Made by a program: the position numbers and the translations under genes. The notes beneath the pieces were generated by a model that was given only the letters and a program-made list of their open reading frames with translations, had not been told where the DNA came from and did no database searches. Positions 1,908 through 57,540 of a stretch of 64,000 bases of DNA are shown here, piece after piece (the stretch's first letter is position 1; each line of letters opens with the position of its first letter). The stretch covers positions 5,314,501 to 5,378,500 of the forward strand of contig NZ_AP021861.1 in NCBI RefSeq assembly GCF_009177095.1, read 5' to 3'. This DNA comes from Lacipirellula parvula. GTDB taxonomy: Bacteria; Planctomycetota; Planctomycetia; Pirellulales; Lacipirellulaceae.

Positions 1908-3321
1908 GTCATCTGGGGCGTGGTCGCGCCGCTCACTCCGAACACACTTACTGATCGCGTATCTTTCGCTGTTGCTCTTGACGGTATTGGGCTTCGGCAC
2001 AGCGACCTATCTGCTAATGCGAAGGGCTATCTACAACGAAGCCGAGTCCGATCTGTTGGGAGCCGCCCAGTTGATCGCTAAAGATAGCAGCGGGACCTCA
2101 GGAACAACGGTGATTGACCGCACGTATCGTCACCGGTTCGGTCCCGCTCCGCGCGACCACGCCTACTTTGCAGTTTGGAACGCTCAGGGCGATGTCTTGG
2201 CTGCCAGCGATCCCCTCCCGCCGCATGTCTCACGGCCGGATGAATCGCCGCCGATCGATGGTCCTCGTCCCTTCGCGACTCGTGTGCACGGGGAAGAGCT
2301 GGAAGTGATCATTCGAGGCCCGGAAGGATCTGAGATCTTAGTCGGCCGGCCCCTGGCGAAAGAGGGCGATCGATTGCGAGGGCTCGTTCGCTACCTCCTA
2401 GCTGCAGGCGGCGTCGTGCTTACGATCGGAGCAATCGCCGCTTGGCGGCTCGCAAATCGCATCGTGCGGCCAATCGAACAGTTGACCGCGGCTGCGGAGC
2501 AGATCTCGGCCACTCGGCTCGATCGACGCCTAGAACCACCGGTGGCGTCCGCTGAAATCCAGCGTCTTGCGGAGGTGTTCAATCGCATGCTGGGACGCCT
2601 GCAGTCGTCGTTCGAGCAGCAAGTGCGATTTACCGCCGATGCATCGCATGAGCTTCGCACGCCCGTCACAGTTATCCTGACGCAAGCGGACCATACACTA
2701 TCGAGAAATCGATCGAGCGAAGAGTACGCCGAGGCTCTAGCGGCTTGCCTACGCGCTGCACGCCGAATGAAGCGGTTAGTTGATGACTTGCTGCTACTAG
2801 CTCGCGCTGACGCTGGGCGGCTGGCCTCTCCGCATGAGGCCTGTGATTTATCAGAGATAGCCCGTTCGACGTTGGATATGCTTGCACCGCTCGCGGGCAA
2901 GCGCAACGTGCAGGTCGAGTCGCAGTTACAGCCGACTCCAATCCAGGGCGACGCGGCGCAACTCTCGCAGGTCATCGCAAATCTCGTTACCAATGCAATC
3001 GATCACAGTCCTGCTCATTCGAGTGTGTTCGTATCCGTTTACTCTCGCCGTGGACTCGCTTTTCTAACAGTGGCGGACGTTGGAAACGGTATTCCCGTAG
3101 AAGATCAGTCGCGTCTATTCGAAAGATTTTACCAAGCCGACAAGTCCCGATCGCGCCAACTCGGTGAGGGCGCCGGCCTCGGCTTGAGCATCGTCGCGGA
3201 AATCGTGTCGCTGCACTCCGGCTCAGTCGACTTCTCCTCAGCTCCCGATCGGGGAACCACGTTCGCAGTCGAATTTCCGCTTCGCACGCTCGACTCGGAC
3301 ATCAGTGAGACGTCGGCTTGA
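1891..3321 (+). CDS. Membrane sensor histidine kinase (HAMP, HisKA, HATPase)
   Basis: A 476-residue sensor kinase. ATG 1891 is chosen because it begins a sensible cytoplasmic N-terminus before the first membrane segment (residues about 20-42). A periplasmic loop of about 125 residues follows, then a second membrane segment (about 168-188), a HAMP domain with IVRPIEQL, and the dimerisation helix with the phospho-His in SHELRTPV near residue 254. The ATPase has the N box NLVTNAIDHSP, G1 DVGNGIP and G2 GAGLGLSI. It acts at the inner membrane and should phosphorylate the regulator encoded just upstream. The organisation resembles small Cus/Qse-type systems, but the stimulus is unknown. Confidence 0.95.
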   Translation: MSSPNESSGAWSRRSLRTHLLIAYLSLLLLTVLGFGTATYLLMRRAIYNEAESDLLGAAQLIAKDSSGTSGTTVIDRTYRHRFGPAPRDHAYFAVWNAQGDVLAASDPLPPHVSRPDESPPIDGPRPFATRVHGEELEVIIRGPEGSEILVGRPLAKEGDRLRGLVRYLLAAGGVVLTIGAIAAWRLANRIVRPIEQLTAAAEQISATRLDRRLEPPVASAEIQRLAEVFNRMLGRLQSSFEQQVRFTADASHELRTPVTVILTQADHTLSRNRSSEEYAEALAACLRAARRMKRLVDDLLLLARADAGRLASPHEACDLSEIARSTLDMLAPLAGKRNVQVESQLQPTPIQGDAAQLSQVIANLVTNAIDHSPAHSSVFVSVYSRRGLAFLTVADVGNGIPVEDQSRLFERFYQADKSRSRQLGEGAGLGLSIVAEIVSLHSGSVDFSSAPDRGTTFAVEFPLRTLDSDISETSA

Positions 3322-3378
3322 TCGATCAGCCGCACTGCGTGAGCGGTCCCCAAGAACTCATACGAGATACCCACCGGT

Positions 3379-3720
3379 ATGCCAGTCGCACTTCAAACGG
3401 TCGCCTTACTCGTCATCTCAAACGTCTTCATGACGTTTGCGTGGTATGGACACCTCAAGTCAATGAATAACAAGGCGTGGTACGTCGCGGCCATCGTTAG
3501 CTGGGGAGTGGCGCTATTCGAATACCTATTTCAGGTTCCAGCCAACCGCATCGGTCACACGACGATGAGCGTGGGGCAACTCAAAATACTGCAAGAAGTC
3601 ATTACGCTGTCCGTGTTCGTCCCTTTCGCTTTGTTCTACATGAAAGAGCCGATCAAGCTCGATTACGCATGGGCTGGCCTGTGCTTGTGCGGAGCCGTCT
3701 ACTTCGTTTTCCGAGGCTGA
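3379..3720 (+). CDS. DMT-superfamily small membrane protein (DUF486)
   Basis: A 113-residue integral membrane protein with four predicted hydrophobic helices. The central block FEYLFQVPANRIGH and the later GQLKILQEVITL are characteristic of the DUF486 family, which belongs to the drug/metabolite transporter clan. Family function is not established. It lies 57 bp after the sensor kinase and 15 bp before an MFS transporter on the same strand, so it may be in one transcript with them. Confidence 0.9.
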   Translation: MPVALQTVALLVISNVFMTFAWYGHLKSMNNKAWYVAAIVSWGVALFEYLFQVPANRIGHTTMSVGQLKILQEVITLSVFVPFALFYMKEPIKLDYAWAGLCLCGAVYFVFRG

Positions 3721-13947: not shown

Positions 13948-13975
13948 TTGACGGTAACGTGTACGCAAGTATACT
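13948..13975 (+). promoter_or_regulatory. Candidate sigma70 promoter of the imuA operon with palindromic -10
   Basis: TTGACG at 13948-13953 and TATACT at 13970-13975 are separated by 16 bp. The -10 hexamer lies inside the 8-bp palindrome AGTATACT (13968-13975), which could be an operator. The likely transcription start (about 13982) is next to the GTG at 13983, which suggests a leaderless message. A planctomycete LexA consensus is not known to me, so SOS control is inferred only from the operon content. Confidence 0.6.
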
Positions 13976-13982
13976 ATCCCCC

Positions 13983-14687
13983 GTGCTAGCAAGATCAAGC
14001 CAACGCGAAACCGTCGAGGCCCTGCGGCAGCAGTTGCGTGAGAAATCCATCAGCGAGCAACCGATGTTTTCTAGCGGCTTAGTCGGTGTCCTCCCGGCGA
14101 AATTTCGGCGAGGAGCCATTGTGGAGTATTTGGCTGACGCAGGTTCGGGAGCGACAGCCGTAGCCTTGTTGGCGGCTCGCGAAGCTTGCCGTGAAGGGGG
14201 CGCCCTGGTCGTCGTCGATCGCTTGCGGACGTTCTATCCACCAGCGGCAGCTCGCTTCGGCTTGAACGGCAACGCGATTATCGTTCGTCCTCGTTCGGTC
14301 CAGGACGAATGGTGGGCACTGAATCAAACGCTTCGTTGTTCCGGGGTTGCTGCCGTGGTGAGTTGGCCGAAACAGTTGCCGGAGAAGGCGTTCCGTGGTT
14401 TGCAGCTAGCCGCGGAGCATGGCGGGGCGGTCGGTTTGTTTTTGCGCTCGATTAACGTACGCGGCAGGCCCAGTTGGTCGGACATGCAGTTGTTAGTCGA
14501 GGCGTTGCCCGGCGGGAAAAGGAGGAGGCTGCGAATCGAAACGTTGCGATCGCGTTTAGGCGATGAAGGCGTTGAGCAAATCGTGGAGTTTGATGATGAA
14601 GCGTCAACGCTTGAAGCAGCGAGCCCTCAGCTTATGGCTGCCCGATTGGCCGCTGCAGCGCGTGCGTCTGGAACGACCGGCGCTTAA
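13983..14687 (+). CDS. imuA: ImuA-like protein of translesion synthesis operon
   Basis: A 234-residue protein equivalent to ImuA, which supports ImuB and DnaE2 in SOS mutagenesis. The N-terminal ARSSQRETVEALRQQLREK and the RecA-like fold (FRRGAIVEYLADAGSGATAVALL, then GGALVVVD and later AVVSWPKQLPEKAFRGLQLAAE) match the family. GTG 13983 is preferred over GTG 13959 because the latter lies within the promoter spacer. Its 3' end overlaps imuB by about 90 bp. Classical Walker A residues are not evident, as is usual in this family. Confidence 0.82.
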   Translation: MLARSSQRETVEALRQQLREKSISEQPMFSSGLVGVLPAKFRRGAIVEYLADAGSGATAVALLAAREACREGGALVVVDRLRTFYPPAAARFGLNGNAIIVRPRSVQDEWWALNQTLRCSGVAAVVSWPKQLPEKAFRGLQLAAEHGGAVGLFLRSINVRGRPSWSDMQLLVEALPGGKRRRLRIETLRSRLGDEGVEQIVEFDDEASTLEAASPQLMAARLAAAARASGTTGA

Positions 14688-16059
14688 GCGCTGCGAACTT
14701 TCCCTTTATTGCCAGCAGCACGGAGCGCTGCGTCTCATCGCCTCCGACCGTTACGCCGCCGGGACGCCGCTGGCCGAGGTTGTCAGGGGCAAGGTGGAAC
14801 AACACGATCCCGACGCCGATCGGGAGACGCTGCTTCGTCTCGCAGCGTGGTGCGAGCAATTTAGTCCCATCGTCGGCATCGAGCCGCCAGACTGCCTCCA
14901 TCTTGATGTAACAGGCCTAGACCTTCTGTATGGAAGCGAAGAGATTCTTGTCAAGAAAATCGCGGAATCGTTCCAGCGACGCGGGCTCGGCGTGCGCGGG
15001 GCAATCGCCGACACCGTTGGCATTGCCTGGGGAGTTTCGCATTACGCTTCGCAGCCATGGTCCATCGTTCGGAGTGAAGCGCTGTTTCGTTCTTTGCCAA
15101 TCGAAGCGTTGCGAGTTGTTGACGACGTTGCAGTGTTTTCCGAGCTCGGCGTGACGAAGATCAACCAATTACTGGCGATTCCACGCACTGCGCTGGCCAG
15201 TCGTTTTGGTTCGGAACTCATCAAGCGAATCCGGCAAGCAATTGGAGAAATTCCCGAACCGATAGTTTCGCATCGTCCGCCGCCAAAGATCCAAGTTGAA
15301 ACGCGTTGCGAATACCCGGTCGGCGATCGCTGCGAGTTGCAGAGCATCTTGAGCGGATTGATCCAGCGCGTCGCCGCCGAACTCGCACGTCGCCAGCAAG
15401 GAGCACTTCAGGTGCGCTGCGAATTTCAGTCCGAGCGGGGGCCGCTCTCTTTTACGGCAAGTCTCTTTCGACCGACTAGCGATTCTGCGCATTTGCTGGA
15501 ATTAGTCGTCATGCAACTCGATCGCATTGCTATTGTCGGGCCGATTGATTGCGTAACGATGGCGGTAACGTCTCACGCCCCATTGACGACTTGGCAACAA
15601 GAGCTGTTTGAGGATTCGCGGCGCGAAGAAAGTCGCCGCGTGGGCTTGCTAGTTGATCGCCTAAGCAATCGATTAGGGCGGGAAGCGGTCGTTCGCTCCA
15701 TTCCGCAGCAGGAAGCTCAACCCGAATTGGCGGTTCGATACGAGCCTCTCGCCGGCGCTGTACGCAGTAAGTCGAAGCGAGTGTTCTCGAAGATCGTGCG
15801 TCCCCTGCATCTCGAAATCCAACCGCGGCCGATTAAGGCGCTGGCGGTTGCTCCGGATGGTCCGCCGCTACAGTTTCACTGGCATGGCGATCATGTGGTA
15901 CGGCGTGCGTGCGGCCCCGAACGAATTCAAACGGGCTGGTGGCGAGGCCGTTATGTCCAACGAGACTATTACCGGGTGGAGACTTCCGTAGGGAAGCGCT
16001 TCTGGCTCTTTCGCGAGTTGCGTTCAGGAAAGTGGTTCTTGCATGGAGCATACGACTAA
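14596..16059 (+). CDS. imuB: Y-family DNA polymerase-like protein ImuB
   Basis: A 487-residue Y-family polymerase-like protein. The N-terminus ALSLWLPDWPLQR is the ImuB hallmark (RRYLALWLPRLPTDR-type), where the catalytic acidic residues of true Y-family polymerases are replaced. The palm block CLHLDVTGLDLLYGSEE and fingers-type segment VRGAIADTVGIAWGVSHY follow, then the little-finger region and a C-terminal segment ending in LFRELRSGKWFLHGAYD. GGAG is 7 nt before ATG 14596. ImuB is thought to be a non-catalytic adaptor that connects DnaE2 to the sliding clamp. Its stop overlaps the start of dnaE2 as TAATG. Confidence 0.9.
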   Translation: MKRQRLKQRALSLWLPDWPLQRVRLERPALKRCELSLYCQQHGALRLIASDRYAAGTPLAEVVRGKVEQHDPDADRETLLRLAAWCEQFSPIVGIEPPDCLHLDVTGLDLLYGSEEILVKKIAESFQRRGLGVRGAIADTVGIAWGVSHYASQPWSIVRSEALFRSLPIEALRVVDDVAVFSELGVTKINQLLAIPRTALASRFGSELIKRIRQAIGEIPEPIVSHRPPPKIQVETRCEYPVGDRCELQSILSGLIQRVAAELARRQQGALQVRCEFQSERGPLSFTASLFRPTSDSAHLLELVVMQLDRIAIVGPIDCVTMAVTSHAPLTTWQQELFEDSRREESRRVGLLVDRLSNRLGREAVVRSIPQQEAQPELAVRYEPLAGAVRSKSKRVFSKIVRPLHLEIQPRPIKALAVAPDGPPLQFHWHGDHVVRRACGPERIQTGWWRGRYVQRDYYRVETSVGKRFWLFRELRSGKWFLHGAYD

Positions 16060-19000
16060 TGCCAGACTCGCAGCCTGATAAGCGCCAACCGATTGAGCCA
16101 AGATGGCACGCCTGTTCCGAAATTCCCTATGCTGAACTTCACTGCAAAACGAATTTCTCGTTTCTGGAAGGAGCGTCTCATGCCGACGAGCTGGTAAGTC
16201 GCGCTTCAGAACTGGGGTATCGGTCCCTGGCGATTACCGATCGCAACAGCTTAGCGGGAGTCGTCCGCGCGCATGGTGTCGCGAAGCAAATCGGATTCAA
16301 GTTGTTGATTGGCGCCGAACTCACGCCAAGCGACTCACCCGCAGTCGTGACGCTCGCCACCGATCGCGCAGCTTATGGGCGTCTCTGCCGTCTCCTGACA
16401 TTGGGGCGACGGCGTGCTCCCAAGGGCGAATGCCGCCTAACATTCGACAATGTCGCCGAGCATGCAGAAGGGATAATTGTTTGCATCGTCGGCGATACGT
16501 CCCTCGAACATATTCGAAGCTATCAAGAAGTATTTGGCAACCGCTGCTACTTGCTAGCTGAGCTCCACCGCGGGGCTGACGATCAGAGAGTCTTGGCAGA
16601 GCGCGTTCGCCTAGCAAAACAAGCAAAAGTTCCGCTTGCTGCGGCAAACGACGTTCACTTCCATGCCTCTGGACGCCGTGCTCTTGCCGACGTGCTGACG
16701 GCTACGAAGCATGGCTGCACCGTGGCCACCGCCGGTGATTTGCTCTTTCCCAACGCAGTTCGTCATCTCAAGACGCCGGAAGAGCTGCGAGAATTGTTCG
16801 CCACGGCCCCTCGAGCCTTACAGCGGACTATCGAGATCGCCGACCGCTGCACATTTTCACTCGATGAGCTTCGTTACGACTACCCCAAGGAACTTGCTCC
16901 TCATGGAATGACGCCGTGCGAGCATTTGTTTCGTCTCACCTGGGAAGGCGCGCGGGGGCGGTATCCTAATGGCGTTCCCGACAAGGTTCATCAGCAAATT
17001 GAACATGAGTTGCAGTTGATTCAAGAGTTGCGTTACGAAGCCTATTTCCTCACCGCCTGGGACTTGGTTCGTTTCGCTCGGTCAAAAGATATTCTTTGCC
17101 AAGGTCGCGGTTCGGCGGCCAATTCCGCCGTCTGCTACTGCCTCGGCGTCACGTCAGTCGATCCAGAACAGATGGAAGTCTTGTTCGAACGGTTTATTTC
17201 ACGCGAGCGCGACGAAGCACCGGACATCGACGTAGATTTTGAGCATGAGCGTCGTGAGGAGGTGATTCAGTACGTCTACCAGAAGTACGGACGCGATCGC
17301 GCGGCCATGACTGCCGAGGTCATTACTTACCGCCCCAGATCCGCAATCCGCGACGTGGCGAAAGCACTCGGCTTCTCGCTCGACGCCATCGACGCCATTT
17401 CTAAATCACTAGATCCTTACGTAGCGCTAGACTCAAAGCGTTGCGAAGCGGCCGGCGTCGACCTTAAATCGCTCGCGGGAAAGCAACTGCTAGCGCTGAC
17501 CAACGAACTAGTGGGCTTTCCGCGGCATCTGGGACAGCATGTGGGCGGGATGGTCATCACAGATTCGCCGTTGTGCGAACTCGTGCCAATTGAAAACGCG
17601 GCAATGGAAGACCGCACTGTCATCGAATGGGACAAAAATGACCTCGATGAACTCGGCTTCCTGAAAGTCGACTGCTTATCGCTGGGGATGCTCACGGCGA
17701 TTCGTAAATGTTTTGAGTTTGTTCAAAAGCATCATGGGCGAGAGCTCACGCTGACCAGCATCCCCCAGGAAGACCGAGATGTTTACGAGATGATGCATCG
17801 CGCCGACACCATGGGCGTTTTTCAGATCGAAAGCCGGGCGCAGATGAGCATGCTGCCGCGACTGAAACCCGTCTGTTTCTACGATCTCGTAATCGAAGTC
17901 GCCATCGTGCGGCCGGGACCGATTCAAGGCAACATGGTGCATCCCTATTTGCAGCGGCGGGCGACGGGCGAAGTGCCGACGTATCCGAATGACGCTATTC
18001 GCGGCGTTTTGCAACGAACGCTCGGCATTCCGCTATTTCAAGAACAAGCGATGCAGCTAGCCGTCGTCGCGGCACAGTTCACGCCCGGCGAAGCCGATCA
18101 ACTACGGCGCGCCATGGCGGCCTGGCGAAGGCCCGGCGTCATCAATGAATTTCGCATACGCTTGCTGCGTGGCATGCAGGCTAACGGATTGTCCGCGGAG
18201 TTCGCCGAATCGGTCTACCGTCAGATCCAGGGATTCGGCGAGTACGGATTCCCAGAGAGCCATGCGGCGTCGTTCGCACGGCTGGTATATATCTCGGCCT
18301 ATTTAAAGTTCCATTACCCTGCCGCATTCTGCGCGGCATTGATTAACTCGCAGCCGATGGGATTCTATGCGCCGGCGCAGCTCGTCCGCAATGCTCAAGC
18401 GCACGGCGTGACGGTTCTGCCGGTAGACGTGAATCGCAGCGTCTGGAACTGCACGCTGGAAGATGTATCGCTCCGCTTGGGATTGCGTATGATCGTGGGA
18501 ATGCCGAAAGAAGATGCGGCCCTGATCGAAGTTCATCAACCATTTGGCTCGATGGACGAGGTACGTCGCGGCGGGATTTCGCAACGTGCGATCGAGCGCT
18601 TGGCTCGCGCCGACGCCTTTGGGTCGCTACAAATGAATCGCCGGACGTCGTTGTGGCAATCGTTGCGTCCCGCGTCTACCGCGCCTCTGTTTCAGGCTGT
18701 CGAAGACTCGGAAGAAGAGGTTCTTTTACCTGCCATGGAAGGTACCGACGAAGTCTTTGCCGACTACGACGCCACAGGATTGTCGTTGAAAGCCCATCCC
18801 GTTTCATTCTTACGCAGCCGACTCGACGAGTTCCGCGTTGTGCCGGCGGCTCGTTTACCCAAACTCCTCGATGGTTGCCAAGTCAAAGTCGGCGGGCTAG
18901 TGCTCGTTCGCCAGCGCCCCGGCACCGCTAAGGGTATAACGTTCGTCACGCTAGAAGACGAGACCGGCGTCGCGAACTTGATCATTCGTAAGGATGTGTG

Positions 19001-19157
19001 GGAGCGGTTTCAACACGTCGCGAGAGCAGCCCCGGCATACATTGCCAGCGGCCGATTACAGAATCAGCAAGGCGTTGTTCACGTCCTGGTCAGCCGGCTG
19101 GAAAATCTGCACGAACGCATCACCCATTTGCGGTCAAAGTCTCGCGACTTTCATTGA
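16059..19157 (+). CDS. dnaE2: Error-prone DNA polymerase III alpha subunit DnaE2
   Basis: A 1032-residue C-family polymerase that performs mutagenic translesion synthesis with ImuA and ImuB. An N-terminal PHP domain begins AELHCKTNFSFLEGASHADE. The polymerase palm contains GRGSAANSAVCYCLGVT and the catalytic acidic motif EAPDIDVDFEHERREEV. A helix-hairpin-helix (QIQGFGEYGFPESHAASFA) and a C-terminal OB-fold (VKVGGLVLVRQRPGTAKG) follow. ATG 16059 shares its A with the imuB stop. The PHP metal site has C-K where replicative enzymes have x-H, as is common in DnaE2. All three cassette genes are intact. Confidence 0.95.
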   Translation: MPDSQPDKRQPIEPRWHACSEIPYAELHCKTNFSFLEGASHADELVSRASELGYRSLAITDRNSLAGVVRAHGVAKQIGFKLLIGAELTPSDSPAVVTLATDRAAYGRLCRLLTLGRRRAPKGECRLTFDNVAEHAEGIIVCIVGDTSLEHIRSYQEVFGNRCYLLAELHRGADDQRVLAERVRLAKQAKVPLAAANDVHFHASGRRALADVLTATKHGCTVATAGDLLFPNAVRHLKTPEELRELFATAPRALQRTIEIADRCTFSLDELRYDYPKELAPHGMTPCEHLFRLTWEGARGRYPNGVPDKVHQQIEHELQLIQELRYEAYFLTAWDLVRFARSKDILCQGRGSAANSAVCYCLGVTSVDPEQMEVLFERFISRERDEAPDIDVDFEHERREEVIQYVYQKYGRDRAAMTAEVITYRPRSAIRDVAKALGFSLDAIDAISKSLDPYVALDSKRCEAAGVDLKSLAGKQLLALTNELVGFPRHLGQHVGGMVITDSPLCELVPIENAAMEDRTVIEWDKNDLDELGFLKVDCLSLGMLTAIRKCFEFVQKHHGRELTLTSIPQEDRDVYEMMHRADTMGVFQIESRAQMSMLPRLKPVCFYDLVIEVAIVRPGPIQGNMVHPYLQRRATGEVPTYPNDAIRGVLQRTLGIPLFQEQAMQLAVVAAQFTPGEADQLRRAMAAWRRPGVINEFRIRLLRGMQANGLSAEFAESVYRQIQGFGEYGFPESHAASFARLVYISAYLKFHYPAAFCAALINSQPMGFYAPAQLVRNAQAHGVTVLPVDVNRSVWNCTLEDVSLRLGLRMIVGMPKEDAALIEVHQPFGSMDEVRRGGISQRAIERLARADAFGSLQMNRRTSLWQSLRPASTAPLFQAVEDSEEEVLLPAMEGTDEVFADYDATGLSLKAHPVSFLRSRLDEFRVVPAARLPKLLDGCQVKVGGLVLVRQRPGTAKGITFVTLEDETGVANLIIRKDVWERFQHVARAAPAYIASGRLQNQQGVVHVLVSRLENLHERITHLRSKSRDFH

Positions 19158-54299: not shown

Positions 54300-54414
54300 C
54301 TAGGTCACCCCAGTCAATGGTGCTGAGTAATTGATTTGGGTGTATTTCGAACTTACTAAAGTGCTATGCCGCCGCTTTGATCTTGAGTCCACTTGGTTCT
54401 TTGCATACTTAGCG

Positions 54415-54460
54415 GATTGTTTCCGGCTTAGTTGAAGAAGCGACCACGCCGGAAACAATC
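54415..54460. repeat. 13-bp perfect inverted repeat near the recombinase end
   Basis: GATTGTTTCCGGC (54415-54427) and GCCGGAAACAATC (54448-54460) are perfect complements with a 20-nt loop. It lies between the att-like hairpin and the final stop of the recombinase frame. It could be a recombinase accessory site or a terminator-like structure of the old element. Confidence 0.7.
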
Positions 54461-54465
54461 TTATC

Positions 54466-54497
54466 GGAGGCGGCGGGTTCGATTCCCGCCGCCTCCA
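54466..54497 (+). other. tRNA/tmRNA 3'-end-like attachment site
   Basis: A 12-bp perfect stem (GGAGGCGGCGGG with CCCGCCGCCTCC) encloses TTCGATT, the T-loop of a tRNA or tmRNA, and is followed by A-C as in a discriminator and ACC end. There is no D-arm or anticodon upstream, so it is not a full tRNA. Such 3'-end copies next to an integrase gene are classical att sites. The chromosome's full tmRNA or tRNA gene must be outside the window. Confidence 0.6.
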
Positions 54498-55090
54498 CTT
54501 GTTGTCGTCGGCGACAGCCAATGACTGAGACTGACTGTCGTTGCCGAAACCCTTGCTACTGCGAGGGTTTCGGCGTTTCTGCGGAGGGCTCTTCTCCCCT
54601 GCCATTGTGACAGGTGGCGTCCCATTTTGCCCCTTTGAGCCATTTGCGCGATGCCCAGGCGCTACCACCCCCGATTGGGGCTGGGCATCGGAGGACGCGG
54701 GGTCCGGCGTTGTCGGGGCCGGCGGAGAAGGCAGCGCGGCGAGCGCCCGGGCTTGGTCGTCGAGGCCGATGTGAGCATACCGCATCGTCATCTTCACGTC
54801 GGTGTGCCGGGCGAGTTCCTTGGCTTCCGGCAGCGACGCCCCGTGCCGCAAGAGCTGGGTGATGTAGGTATGCCGTCCCGCGGCGTGGAAGTCGGCCACT
54901 CCCTCCTTGGTCTTATACTGCAAACCAGCTCGCTCCAGGTCCTTCTTGACCATGAGCCAGGTGCGTCGTTTTGCCAGCAGCGGGAACAGAATCGCATCTG
55001 GCGCGATGTCGGCGAACCAATCGCGGAGCATACTCACGAGATCCCCGTGCAGCGGGAGCACGTCGCGACGGCGGTGCTTGGAGCATGCCG

Positions 55091-55309
55091 CCTCGACCGT
55101 ATCCGCCAGCCAAGCTTGACATGGCCTACTTCCTTCCGCATCTGTCCAAGCAAAGCCGTACCGGCATCCCGAACCTGACGCCACTCAAGATCGACGGTAA
55201 GGAGTATCAGCAGTGGTCGCGTCACTACGAATGGCGCGAAGGGATTGACGATCTGGCGGTGCATTACCGCCGTGTCGAGCAGTGGCTCCTTGACGAACTG
55301 AAACGGTAA
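55091..55309 (+). pseudogene. C-terminal remnant of an E2-like (UBC-fold) protein gene
   Basis: The frame reads PYPPAKLDMAYFLPHLSKQS, then KEYQQWSRHYEWREGIDD and AVHYRRVEQWLLDELKR, ending 8 bp before the JAB-E1 gene. The WSRH block and the YRRVEQWL helix are typical of the C-terminal part of bacterial E2 family proteins that are encoded before E1 in multi-ubiquitin operons. About 70 residues remain. Homology ends near 55090, where the opposite-strand recombinase homology begins. The active-site Cys region and any linked ubiquitin-like domain are missing. Confidence 0.65.
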
Positions 55310-55317
55310 GGGCGGCA

Positions 55318-56715
55318 ATGGAATACGTTCTTCGATTGACGGGCGAGCAGCACGCGCAGCTCAAAGCCCATTTGTTTCCGGGAGACGGCTTGGAGGCCGC
55401 AGCGCTCGTGCTATGCGGGCGACTGCGTGGTCGAGGTCGCCATGCATTCATGGTGCGTAAGGTAGTGTTGATCCCGCACGCCGAATGCAAGCGAACCGCG
55501 GTGACCATTACTTGGCCGACACTGTTTGCCGACGACCTGATTAATGAAGCCGCCAAACGTGGCATGGCAATTCTCAAAGTTCATAGCCATCCCGGCGGTA
55601 TGGATACGTTCTCGGGCTATGACGACAAGTCCGACGCGAGTTTCCTCGGCTCGGTTTGCACGATTCTCGAAGACAAGCAGCCCCATGCGAGCGCAGTAAT
55701 GCTGCCGTGCGGGCGCATGTTTGCAAGGGTGCTGGATGATAATGGTGAGTTCCACCCCGTGAGTCTTGTCAGCATGGTCGGTGAGGATATGAACTTGTGG
55801 TATCCCGACCCTGGTCGAGATATCCCTGAATTCGCCCGGCGGCACGCACAGGTGTTCGGCGCAGGGACGGTCGCTTGCTTACGTAGGATGCGGATCGCGG
55901 TGATCGGCTGCTCCGGCACTGGCACGCCGCTTATCGAGCAACTCGTTCGCCTCGGTGTTGGGTTCCTGGTGCTGGTCGATCCTGATCGGTCGGAATGGAA
56001 GAATCTCAACCGGATGTATATGACCAAAACCAGCGACGCCAATCTTGGCCGATTTAAGGTCGAGGTGTTGGCCGAGGCGATCGGCCATATCGGACTGGGG
56101 ACCGAAGTGCTGCCCTTGGCACAAGACCTGGCCACGCCCGACGTGGTGCGTGCGGTGGCATCATGTGATATGGTGTTTGGCTGTACTGACAGCTTCGCCG
56201 CGCGCGATGTTTTGAATCGTCTCGCGACCTTCTATACGCTCCCCTACATCGACATCGGCGTGCAACTTCGCGCGTTGCCTGCCGGCGGCGTCGATCAAAT
56301 TACCGGCGCCGTGCATTACCTCCAGCCCGGCAAGTCAAGCCTGAAGTCGCGTGGAATCTATGACTCGGAAGATGTCCGCGCGGAGCTGATGAAGCGCGAC
56401 GATCCGGCCGAGTACGAGAAGCAACTAGTGCAGAAATACATCAAGGGCGTGCAGGAGGATCGCCCCGCGGTCATCAGCGTGAACTCGATGGTAGCGTCGA
56501 TGGCCGTCAATGAGCTTCTGGCGCGAATTCATCGCTTTCGGTACGACGACAACGACGCGTACGCGACGCTGCGATATGCAGTGCATGAGCCGCACGTTTT
56601 CAAAGATGCTGAAGGGGATTTGAATGTCTGTCCGGTGCTAGCCAAAGAAGTTGGCCGCGGCAACGTTACTCCGCTGTTGGACAGGCCCGAGTTGAGCGAG
56701 GGAGGGAAGGTTTGA
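55318..56715 (+). CDS. JAB (JAMM) protease fused to E1-like (ThiF) adenylating enzyme
   Basis: A 465-residue fusion. Residues about 5-150 are a JAB/MPN metalloprotease: VHSHPGGMDTFSGYDDKSD gives H-x-H-P-x(6)-S-x2-D, with an upstream Glu as expected in these. Residues about 190-440 are an E1 fold: MRIAVIGCSGTGTPLIEQLV (nucleotide loop), VDPDRSEWKNLNRMY (D-x-D...N-x-N-R) and FGCTDSFAARDVLNRLATFY. No typical catalytic Cys is seen in the QPGKSSLKSRG region. In known bacterial ubiquitin-like operons such enzymes adenylate a ubiquitin-like protein and remove it again. TAAGGGCGG is the ribosome site. It ends TGATG with the next gene. Confidence 0.88.
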   Translation: MEYVLRLTGEQHAQLKAHLFPGDGLEAAALVLCGRLRGRGRHAFMVRKVVLIPHAECKRTAVTITWPTLFADDLINEAAKRGMAILKVHSHPGGMDTFSGYDDKSDASFLGSVCTILEDKQPHASAVMLPCGRMFARVLDDNGEFHPVSLVSMVGEDMNLWYPDPGRDIPEFARRHAQVFGAGTVACLRRMRIAVIGCSGTGTPLIEQLVRLGVGFLVLVDPDRSEWKNLNRMYMTKTSDANLGRFKVEVLAEAIGHIGLGTEVLPLAQDLATPDVVRAVASCDMVFGCTDSFAARDVLNRLATFYTLPYIDIGVQLRALPAGGVDQITGAVHYLQPGKSSLKSRGIYDSEDVRAELMKRDDPAEYEKQLVQKYIKGVQEDRPAVISVNSMVASMAVNELLARIHRFRYDDNDAYATLRYAVHEPHVFKDAEGDLNVCPVLAKEVGRGNVTPLLDRPELSEGGKV

Positions 56716-57065
56716 TGCGGCGGATGTTGCCTGCAATCTGGGAATGGTTGCGGTCGTGGTTTGTTCAGCCTGTTCGACCGCTGCAAACCATTCACGTCGA
56801 GGAGTTGCCGGACAAGCTCGACCCAAAGGCGGTCTATGTGCTGGGCGAGGGCAAGCACTTATGGTTTGTGGCGATGCTTTGTCCGTGCGGGTGCAACCAA
56901 GTTCTGCAGGTGAGCCTGCTGCCTGACGCCAAGCCGAGGTGGAAGCTGATTGAACACGCCACTGATGGTTCGATCACACTGCAGCCATCGGTTTGGCGCA
57001 AGATTGGTTGCCGGAGTCATTTCTTTCTGCGCCGGGGGCTGATCCAATGGTGCCGCGATCGGTAA
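56715..57065 (+). CDS. DUF6527 zinc-binding protein of ubiquitin-like operon
   Basis: A 116-residue protein whose ATG overlaps the E1 stop (TGATG). Cysteine blocks LCPCGCNQVLQVSLL and GCRSHFFLRRGLIQWC are the DUF6527 signature, a likely zinc site. Members are repeatedly encoded after JAB/E1 genes in bacterial ubiquitin-like operons; their role is not established, but binding of the modifier or target is possible. Length is normal. Confidence 0.88.
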   Translation: MRRMLPAIWEWLRSWFVQPVRPLQTIHVEELPDKLDPKAVYVLGEGKHLWFVAMLCPCGCNQVLQVSLLPDAKPRWKLIEHATDGSITLQPSVWRKIGCRSHFFLRRGLIQWCRDR

Positions 57066-57153
57066 AGCGTTGTGTCATGTATCGCTTCTAAACCTGCGGC
57101 GGTCGTGAACACCGACGCGTGAAAAGGTCGATAGTGCAGCAGTCTTCACACGA

Positions 57154-57540
57154 CTAAGCTTTAGCAGATGTAAACCTAGCGCCGCATACAAAACAATTAT
57201 CGTTTTCCCTGCGACATCGCTTGATTAGCACGTCGAATCGCGAGCCATTTGGCAGCTCCAGCTTACATTTCTGGTGCGGCAGCAATTGTCTGGGCGATAG
57301 GAAGCCGATGCCTTGCCTTGAGATGTCGCAGGTGTAGACGGCGTAAACGAATCCATCGCCGAGTAGTACGGCCTCGCTTCGCATGAAAAATCGATGGAAT
57401 GCCCTGCGGTTGTCGTCGCGGCGGCCCATCGGACCTTTCAACGAGAAAAAAGCGTGCGCCTCCTCAGCGGAGAGTTCGACCCGTGCCTGCGCTGATAGCG
57501 ATTGCGAACTTTCTATTCTGTGAACGCTGCTTCCCAGCAT
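57154..57540 (-). CDS. PilZ-domain protein
   Basis: A 128-residue protein with a PilZ domain, the cyclic di-GMP receptor fold: RRAFHRFFMR provides the RxxxR motif and CDISRQGIGFLSP the D-x-S-x-x-G motif. The start lies inside the HD-GYP gene (28-nt overlap) with GGAG 8 nt upstream, so both are coupled. A receptor encoded with a cyclic di-GMP phosphodiesterase suggests local signalling, perhaps toward the chemotaxis genes nearby. Confidence 0.85.
   Translation of the reverse strand: MLGSSVHRIESSQSLSAQARVELSAEEAHAFFSLKGPMGRRDDNRRAFHRFFMRSEAVLLGDGFVYAVYTCDISRQGIGFLSPRQLLPHQKCKLELPNGSRFDVLIKRCRRENDNCFVCGARFTSAKA

Follow-up and report, generated by a model that had tools for sequence, protein, structure and literature searches.

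The stretch analysed here, 64,000 nucleotides (nt) of the Lacipirellula parvula genome (positions 5,314,501-5,378,500 of a single 6.92 Mb contig; hereafter the window), carries at 54300-57065 the downstream genes of a Bub operon, a bacterial operon for conjugating a ubiquitin-like protein (Ubl), abutting part of a tyrosine integrase gene. Judged from sequence comparisons, this locus is very probably the remnant of a mobile Bub operon, recently broken and most likely non-functional dead baggage rather than a new kind of system. The first gene is cut in its E2-like domain, the two genes that follow it, for a JAB-E1 fusion and a DUF6527 protein, are intact with almost no decay, and the break lies at base 55100. 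The locus consists of the following features:

54466-54500, plus strand: fragment resembling the 3′ end of the transfer-messenger RNA (tmRNA) gene ssrA, the attachment-core remnant met by the integrase frame (RF00023, 23.3 bits, below the 47-bit gathering threshold)
54300-55100, minus strand: 5′-truncated tyrosine integrase, comprising the C-terminal part of the catalytic domain and the tail (PF00589, 59-168 of 172; L032 and L039 alignments)
55100, no strand: recombination junction, with about 1 nt common to both sides (L010 homology on the plus strand, L032 and L039 homology on the minus strand)
55100-55309, plus strand: headless BubB-like (Prok-E2_E) fragment, 69 codons and a stop (PF14462, 51-120 of 123; L010 comparison)
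55318-56715, plus strand: BubCD-like JAB-E1 fusion, intact (PF14464 and PF00899; Citrobacter BubCD 9ea4)
56715-57065, plus strand: DUF6527 metal-binding-type protein, intact (PF20137, E 1.3e-21)

The strongest support for this reading is a junction fixed to a single base by independent comparisons. The closest relative of the operon, L010 (JADYZV010000011.1, from the Pirellulaceae metagenome-assembled genome (MAG) SJ586; JAB-E1 94% identical in amino acids), aligns with the window at 90.4% DNA identity over 1954 nt without gaps, from 55100 to 57053, and no alignment between the two was found outside these limits on either side. On the minus strand, the DNA homology of the integrase piece to two intact integrases, L032 and L039, likewise starts at 55100. 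Since both homologies begin there, we place the break at base 55100. A sequence-only reading of the window had put it at 55086-55095, and that position has to be moved. The same reading had described a gene keeping about 70 C-terminal residues of an E2-like protein, a 5′-truncated tyrosine recombinase on the opposite strand, and intact JAB-E1 and DUF6527 genes coupled through TGATG; all three descriptions hold, the last with an overlap at 56713-56717 that is arranged in the same way in L010. The tmRNA fragment is an addition to it.

The two genes face apart across the junction, so that one deletion between divergent genes explains the break, and we infer that a single element suffered a deletion, not that two elements were joined. 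That the junction is an assembly chimera we regard as very unlikely: it is known from one genome only, but this genome is one contig, and a mobile-element gene and an often plasmid-borne operon are cut at the same base and face apart, the arrangement expected after a deletion between divergent genes. When 43 genomes of the family were searched at 1e-40, only the genome itself and, at 30% identity, G019 matched, and no related genome with the same junction and a full-length gene across it was found among them.

The match of the integrase piece to the Phage_integrase profile (54.5-55.1 kb, E 7.3e-10) begins at profile position 59. L032 (468 aa, from viral_contigs) has 246 codons upstream of the point equivalent to the break, and the window integrase is incomplete by about 246 N-terminal residues, including the core-binding domain and, presumably, the first catalytic-arginine box. 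Over 351 nt the DNA is 71.5% identical to L032 and 72.1% identical to L039 (a 477-aa open frame in genome G308), and the C-terminal parts of the proteins are 62% and 67% identical, respectively. For L040 (genome G369; 56%), DNA homology is detectable only from 54977 and the protein match runs from query residue 2. Searches with the integrase gave no match in plasmids, two loci in viral_contigs, of which L033, with a match of just 39 residues, was set aside, and two matches besides its own among 392 genomes of the phylum at 1e-40.

At its other end the integrase piece runs into the tmRNA core. Window positions 54473-54500 are identical, 28 of 28 nt, to the sequence behind the L039 integrase, where they form the 3′ terminus of a complete tmRNA gene (RF00023, 158.8 bits) that the L039 frame abuts; past this core the window differs from L039. 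The L032 frame adjoins a tmRNA cut by the end of its contig (64.8 bits), and the stretch examined around L040 gave no tmRNA match. In the host, ssrA is intact at 815,651-816,015 (158.3 bits) and carries the same core at its 3′ end. Further partial tmRNA matches, below cut-off, lie in G000:C1 at 750203-750285 and 1118826-1118901; the former has a 31-nt stretch in common with window 54469-54499, and both are possibly other integration scars.

On the other side of the break, the 69-codon stub matches the Prok-E2_E profile with an E value of 7.5e-16, and about 50 of the 123 profile positions are gone from the gene. The stub is assigned to the BubB family of E2-like proteins. In L010 the gene before JAB-E1 is a 240-residue Ubl-E2 open reading frame (ORF), with Multi_ubiq at residues 32-96 and a complete E2-like domain (Prok-E2_E 1-120 of 123) at 120-234, the latter matching Citrobacter BubB 9eav (2.1e-23) and 9eae; at the window locus no complete BubB domain is present. 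Because L010 carries both in one ORF, the Ubl was lost along with the 5′ part of the E2-like gene; the missing part thus comprises the whole Ubl domain and, of the E2 domain, the N-terminal half. The sequence-only reading had proposed a recombination event that removed the E2 catalytic part and any Ubl gene. Its event stands, with the 5′ part of the E2-like gene and the Ubl removed and the integrase truncated; its wording of an "E2 catalytic part" does not. That wording was rejected, since the best conserved block of the domain, WSRH, is still present in the stub and an alignment with 14 relatives shows no conserved cysteine in the family, in agreement with Iyer et al. (2006; PMC1779556).

Among the E2 columns conserved in at least 13 of the 14 relatives (24 columns), 18 are retained in the stub, QxWSRH included, and six are lost. 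One could therefore imagine that the stub works as a short E2-like domain with its WSRH block, the Ubl having been lost while the rest adapted, and the frame is indeed open to 55309 with a ratio of nonsynonymous to synonymous substitution rates (dN/dS) of 0.07-0.12 against L010. We consider this highly improbable, given the missing profile positions, an Arg where 13 of the 14 relatives carry Gly, and a dN/dS that mostly reflects the time before the loss.

Among the loci compared, the cut is peculiar to the window. A Ubl and a full E2 directly precede JAB-E1 in all 14 relative loci (L010, L012-L014 and L016-L025; L015 and L021 are one and the same plasmid, and we left out L011, which matches at 28% over part of E1, L003 and L004, which match in the E1 part only, and L002, L006, L037 and L057-L060, which form a second, distant type). 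Of 90 plasmid records with a JAB-E1 match 60 were listed, and 51 of these recur among the 60 listed of 98 with a Ubl-E2 match, an overlap counted by record, adjacency not being checked row by row. Four more of the listed plasmids carry a Ubl-E2 gene: CP036297 by tblastn, CP136753 and CP139721 with an annotated multiubiquitin, and CP010358 with an annotated E2/UBC protein. No other headless copy was seen in 55 of the 60 listed plasmid records, the remaining five not having been looked at. JAB-E1 had no match in 50,697 phage records, and neither JAB-E1 nor the L010 Ubl-E2 had a confirmed match in viral_contigs.

L010 itself shows a divergent layout of the kind from which such a deletion could start: its minus strand carries a split integrase, a capP-like gene (PADLOC E 2.9e-56) and two more genes, and the Bub genes follow on the plus strand. 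Its integrase, at 1721-2862 beside the intact operon, consists of two overlapping frames and gives weak matches (N-terminal SAM-like domain 5.1e-06, Phage_integrase 0.0074); barring a sequencing error in the MAG, this element may likewise be stranded. In L017 (genome G066), at about 2883-3548, two genes encode Ubl and E2; only one in-frame stop divides them, directly behind ..LDQTEG, and its position suggests a possible cut site in the fused L010 Ubl-E2 precursor.

The genes spared by the break look sound. JAB-E1 matches ThiF (PF00899) at 1.3e-31 and Prok-JAB (PF14464) at 4.4e-06, and its best solved match is Citrobacter BubCD (9ea4_A, E 2.6e-78) over residues 5-460 of 465; it has an aspartate at the position aligned to the residue mutated in the BubCD D104A structure sequence. 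When the window protein and L010 were aligned with 13 other relatives, those 13 proved invariant in 47 columns; the window differs at two of them (residues 203 and 358), both in common with L010, so that no departure is private to the window. At the 86 columns with at most one exception among the 13, the window departs six times and L010 five times. In DUF6527, C56, C60, C99 and H102 are invariant across 14 aligned sequences; a search of solved structures gave no convincing match (best E 0.077).

There is no stop codon in the stub, the 196-residue integrase piece, JAB-E1 or DUF6527, and the DNA alignments are ungapped. The dN/dS against L010 (NG86) is 0.095 for JAB-E1 and 0.085 for DUF6527, values that, like that of the stub, are uninformative about the state after the loss because they mostly reflect the time before it, the two periods being inseparable without a closer relative. 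More to the point, when the JAB-E1 differences from L010 were polarised with the 13 relatives, six changes were assigned to the window and 14 to L010, with 10 left undecided. If JAB-E1 has been neutral since the loss, the loss would date from the last 7% of the branch since L010 when six changes are counted, or from the last 14% when 16 are (95% bounds, assuming equal branches and a dS of 0.33). With so little decay, either the loss was very recent or JAB-E1 is still constrained.

Continued constraint could mean that the JAB-E1/DUF6527 pair is used in trans, as a deconjugase or an E1 for a Ubl encoded elsewhere, for which the sequence-only reading had also allowed. A genome-wide search for a Ubl gene with an intact E2 did turn up one: in a profile search of the genome, a single other operon has Prok-E2_E and JAB-E1 (about 4.2527-4.2604 Mb, within L037 6699-15430 at about 4.2517-4.2604 Mb), and there is no DUF6527 gene besides the window copy. 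The Multi_ubiq profile had zero matches in the genome at E 0.001, and the same search was also blank in all control genomes; this blank alone is misleading, because the Ubl-E2 protein of the second operon (392 aa) matches weakly, at 9.2e-05 on the protein alone, just under the cut-off (Prok-E2_E 5e-06). The operon continues with a JAB-E1 of 527 aa (ThiF 6e-22; Prok-JAB 0.00036, under its cut-off), an IetA-like AAA ATPase (PADLOC 1.3e-82) and an IetS-like subtilase (8.6e-58), all in one direction, with a divergent capP-like gene and an integrase nearby. It is apparently complete but distant in sequence from the remnant.

Use of the pair in trans, for instance by this operon at about 4.256 Mb, is compatible with the lack of excess changes in the window JAB-E1 and with a loose similarity, by eye, of the Ubl ends (in L010 ..QTDG is followed by E, in the second operon ..EVTGG by F). 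The second operon nevertheless owns its own E2 and its own JAB-E1, which is about 29-30% identical to that of the window over residues 77-398; the remnant has also lost what lay upstream of its missing head, and a recent loss explains the lack of decay equally well. Nothing was found that links the second operon to the remnant or shows rescue, and on balance we think use in trans unlikely. Quite unlikely, too, is a more general version, in which the headless JAB-E1/DUF6527 pair would persist as a module of its own, stripping or activating the Ubls of other operons, the genome's own second one or those of incoming mobile elements, a broken system thereby acting as a cross-acting brake.

The second-operon type was matched in four of the 392 genomes, L. 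parvula included. In L058 (genome G284) the same four-gene order is contiguous and 51-60% identical to L037. The stretches fetched for L057 and L059 gave no IetA or IetS match, L057 carrying efflux-pump genes there, and in L060, a 35% relative of the second-operon JAB-E1, a 92-residue hypothetical protein and no annotated Ubl-E2 precedes the gene. A partial literature search found no account of a pairing of Ubl and JAB-E1 with IetA and IetS.

We therefore return to the broken mobile operon. The Bub operon probably arrived on a mobile element, and its intact form would make the Ubl-E2 precursor, JAB-E1 and DUF6527 from one cluster. From what is known of the families, release of the Ubl would fall to the JAB domain and its adenylation to the E1 domain, with the E2-like domain assisting in its transfer to a target. 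The illegitimate break at 55100 would then have removed the 5′ parts of the leftward integrase and the rightward Ubl-E2 gene with everything between them, presumably including the promoter. A pathway lacking both the Ubl and the head of the E2 is not expected to run. Most likely, therefore, neither of the two intact genes is in use; they would have had too little time to decay.

Several observations weigh against this reading. The changes in DUF6527, polarised with 12 relatives, are even (window five, L010 five, undecided five), and Asn 449 of JAB-E1, where L010 and 12 of the 13 relatives have Asp, is the window's own departure. By eye, a plausible ribosome-binding site precedes JAB-E1; together with invariant columns free of window-only departures, this would permit continued use, and nothing shows that the operon is not still expressed. 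As to the element, the tmRNA core lies at 5.37 Mb and the host ssrA at 0.816 Mb, so that the piece has moved or was inserted at a secondary site, and the history of the left side is incomplete. Our searches found no single ancestral element with this integrase and Bub, and the L010 integrase is not recognisably related to that of the window, so that two elements may have been joined.

Genes for PilZ and HD-GYP proteins come after the DUF6527 gene. In a comparison of 11 window genes with 18 kb of a genome of the same genus, G034, these two were the only matches, and therefore only the right edge of the insert is bounded, between 57053 and 57180. A promoter scan of 54300-57200 found none against 1.2 in shuffled sequences, and accordingly had low power; the sole terminator-like site in the scan of that interval was the tmRNA hairpin at 54466-54496. 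The neighbouring PilZ, HD-GYP and GH123 proteins, scanned for a regulator of the CapW, CapH/CapP or CapK/CapS type, matched no PADLOC family. Elsewhere in the window, at 13959-19157, the ORF translations of three consecutive genes resemble, by eye, a putative ImuA/ImuB/DnaE2 mutagenic repair cassette.

The remnant is most likely ordinary decay, and it documents, to the exact base, one case in which a mobile ubiquitin-like operon was broken, with the Ubl and the E2 head lost and JAB-E1 and DUF6527 spared. Counts of BubCD or DUF6527 genes alone would overstate the number of working systems. If the pair were active in trans after all, the locus would be a natural test of the use of Bub deconjugation without conjugation.

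Among known systems, the integrative elements of tmRNA genes (intact in L032 and L039) resemble the left part of the locus, where the integrase fragment runs into the same tmRNA 3′ end; the window integrase differs from theirs in its missing N-terminal residues and in not lying beside the host ssrA. The Bil operon (bacterial ISG15-like) is another bacterial E1-E2-Ubl-JAB conjugation operon. The window differs from it in that JAB and E1 form one protein, the E2 family is without a conserved cysteine and, among solved structures, Bub proteins match best. In Bub operons a DUF6527-type metal-binding protein is a frequent downstream partner, and a CapW, CapH/CapP or CapK/CapS regulator stands beside some of them. 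PMC12687455 mentions Bub operons in passing, and the candidate statement that the operon has been demonstrated to be antiphage was rejected on the basis of passages in PMC13373217. The operon type described by Iyer et al. (2006; PMC1779556) has tandem Ub-like domains, an E2/RWD-like domain without the conserved cysteine, a JAB-E1 fusion and a metal-binding protein, which the window DUF6527 fits (table row 6e), and these authors emphasise the mobility of such clusters. The closest known counterpart is the Bub operon of Citrobacter (BubB and BubCD; PDB 9ea4, 9ea5, 9eae and 9eav): the window JAB-E1 aligns nearly full length with BubCD, its E2 family aligns with BubB, and gene order and overlaps match those of the relatives, whereas the window copy is without the Ubl domain and, of the E2-like gene, has kept no more than 69 C-terminal codons.

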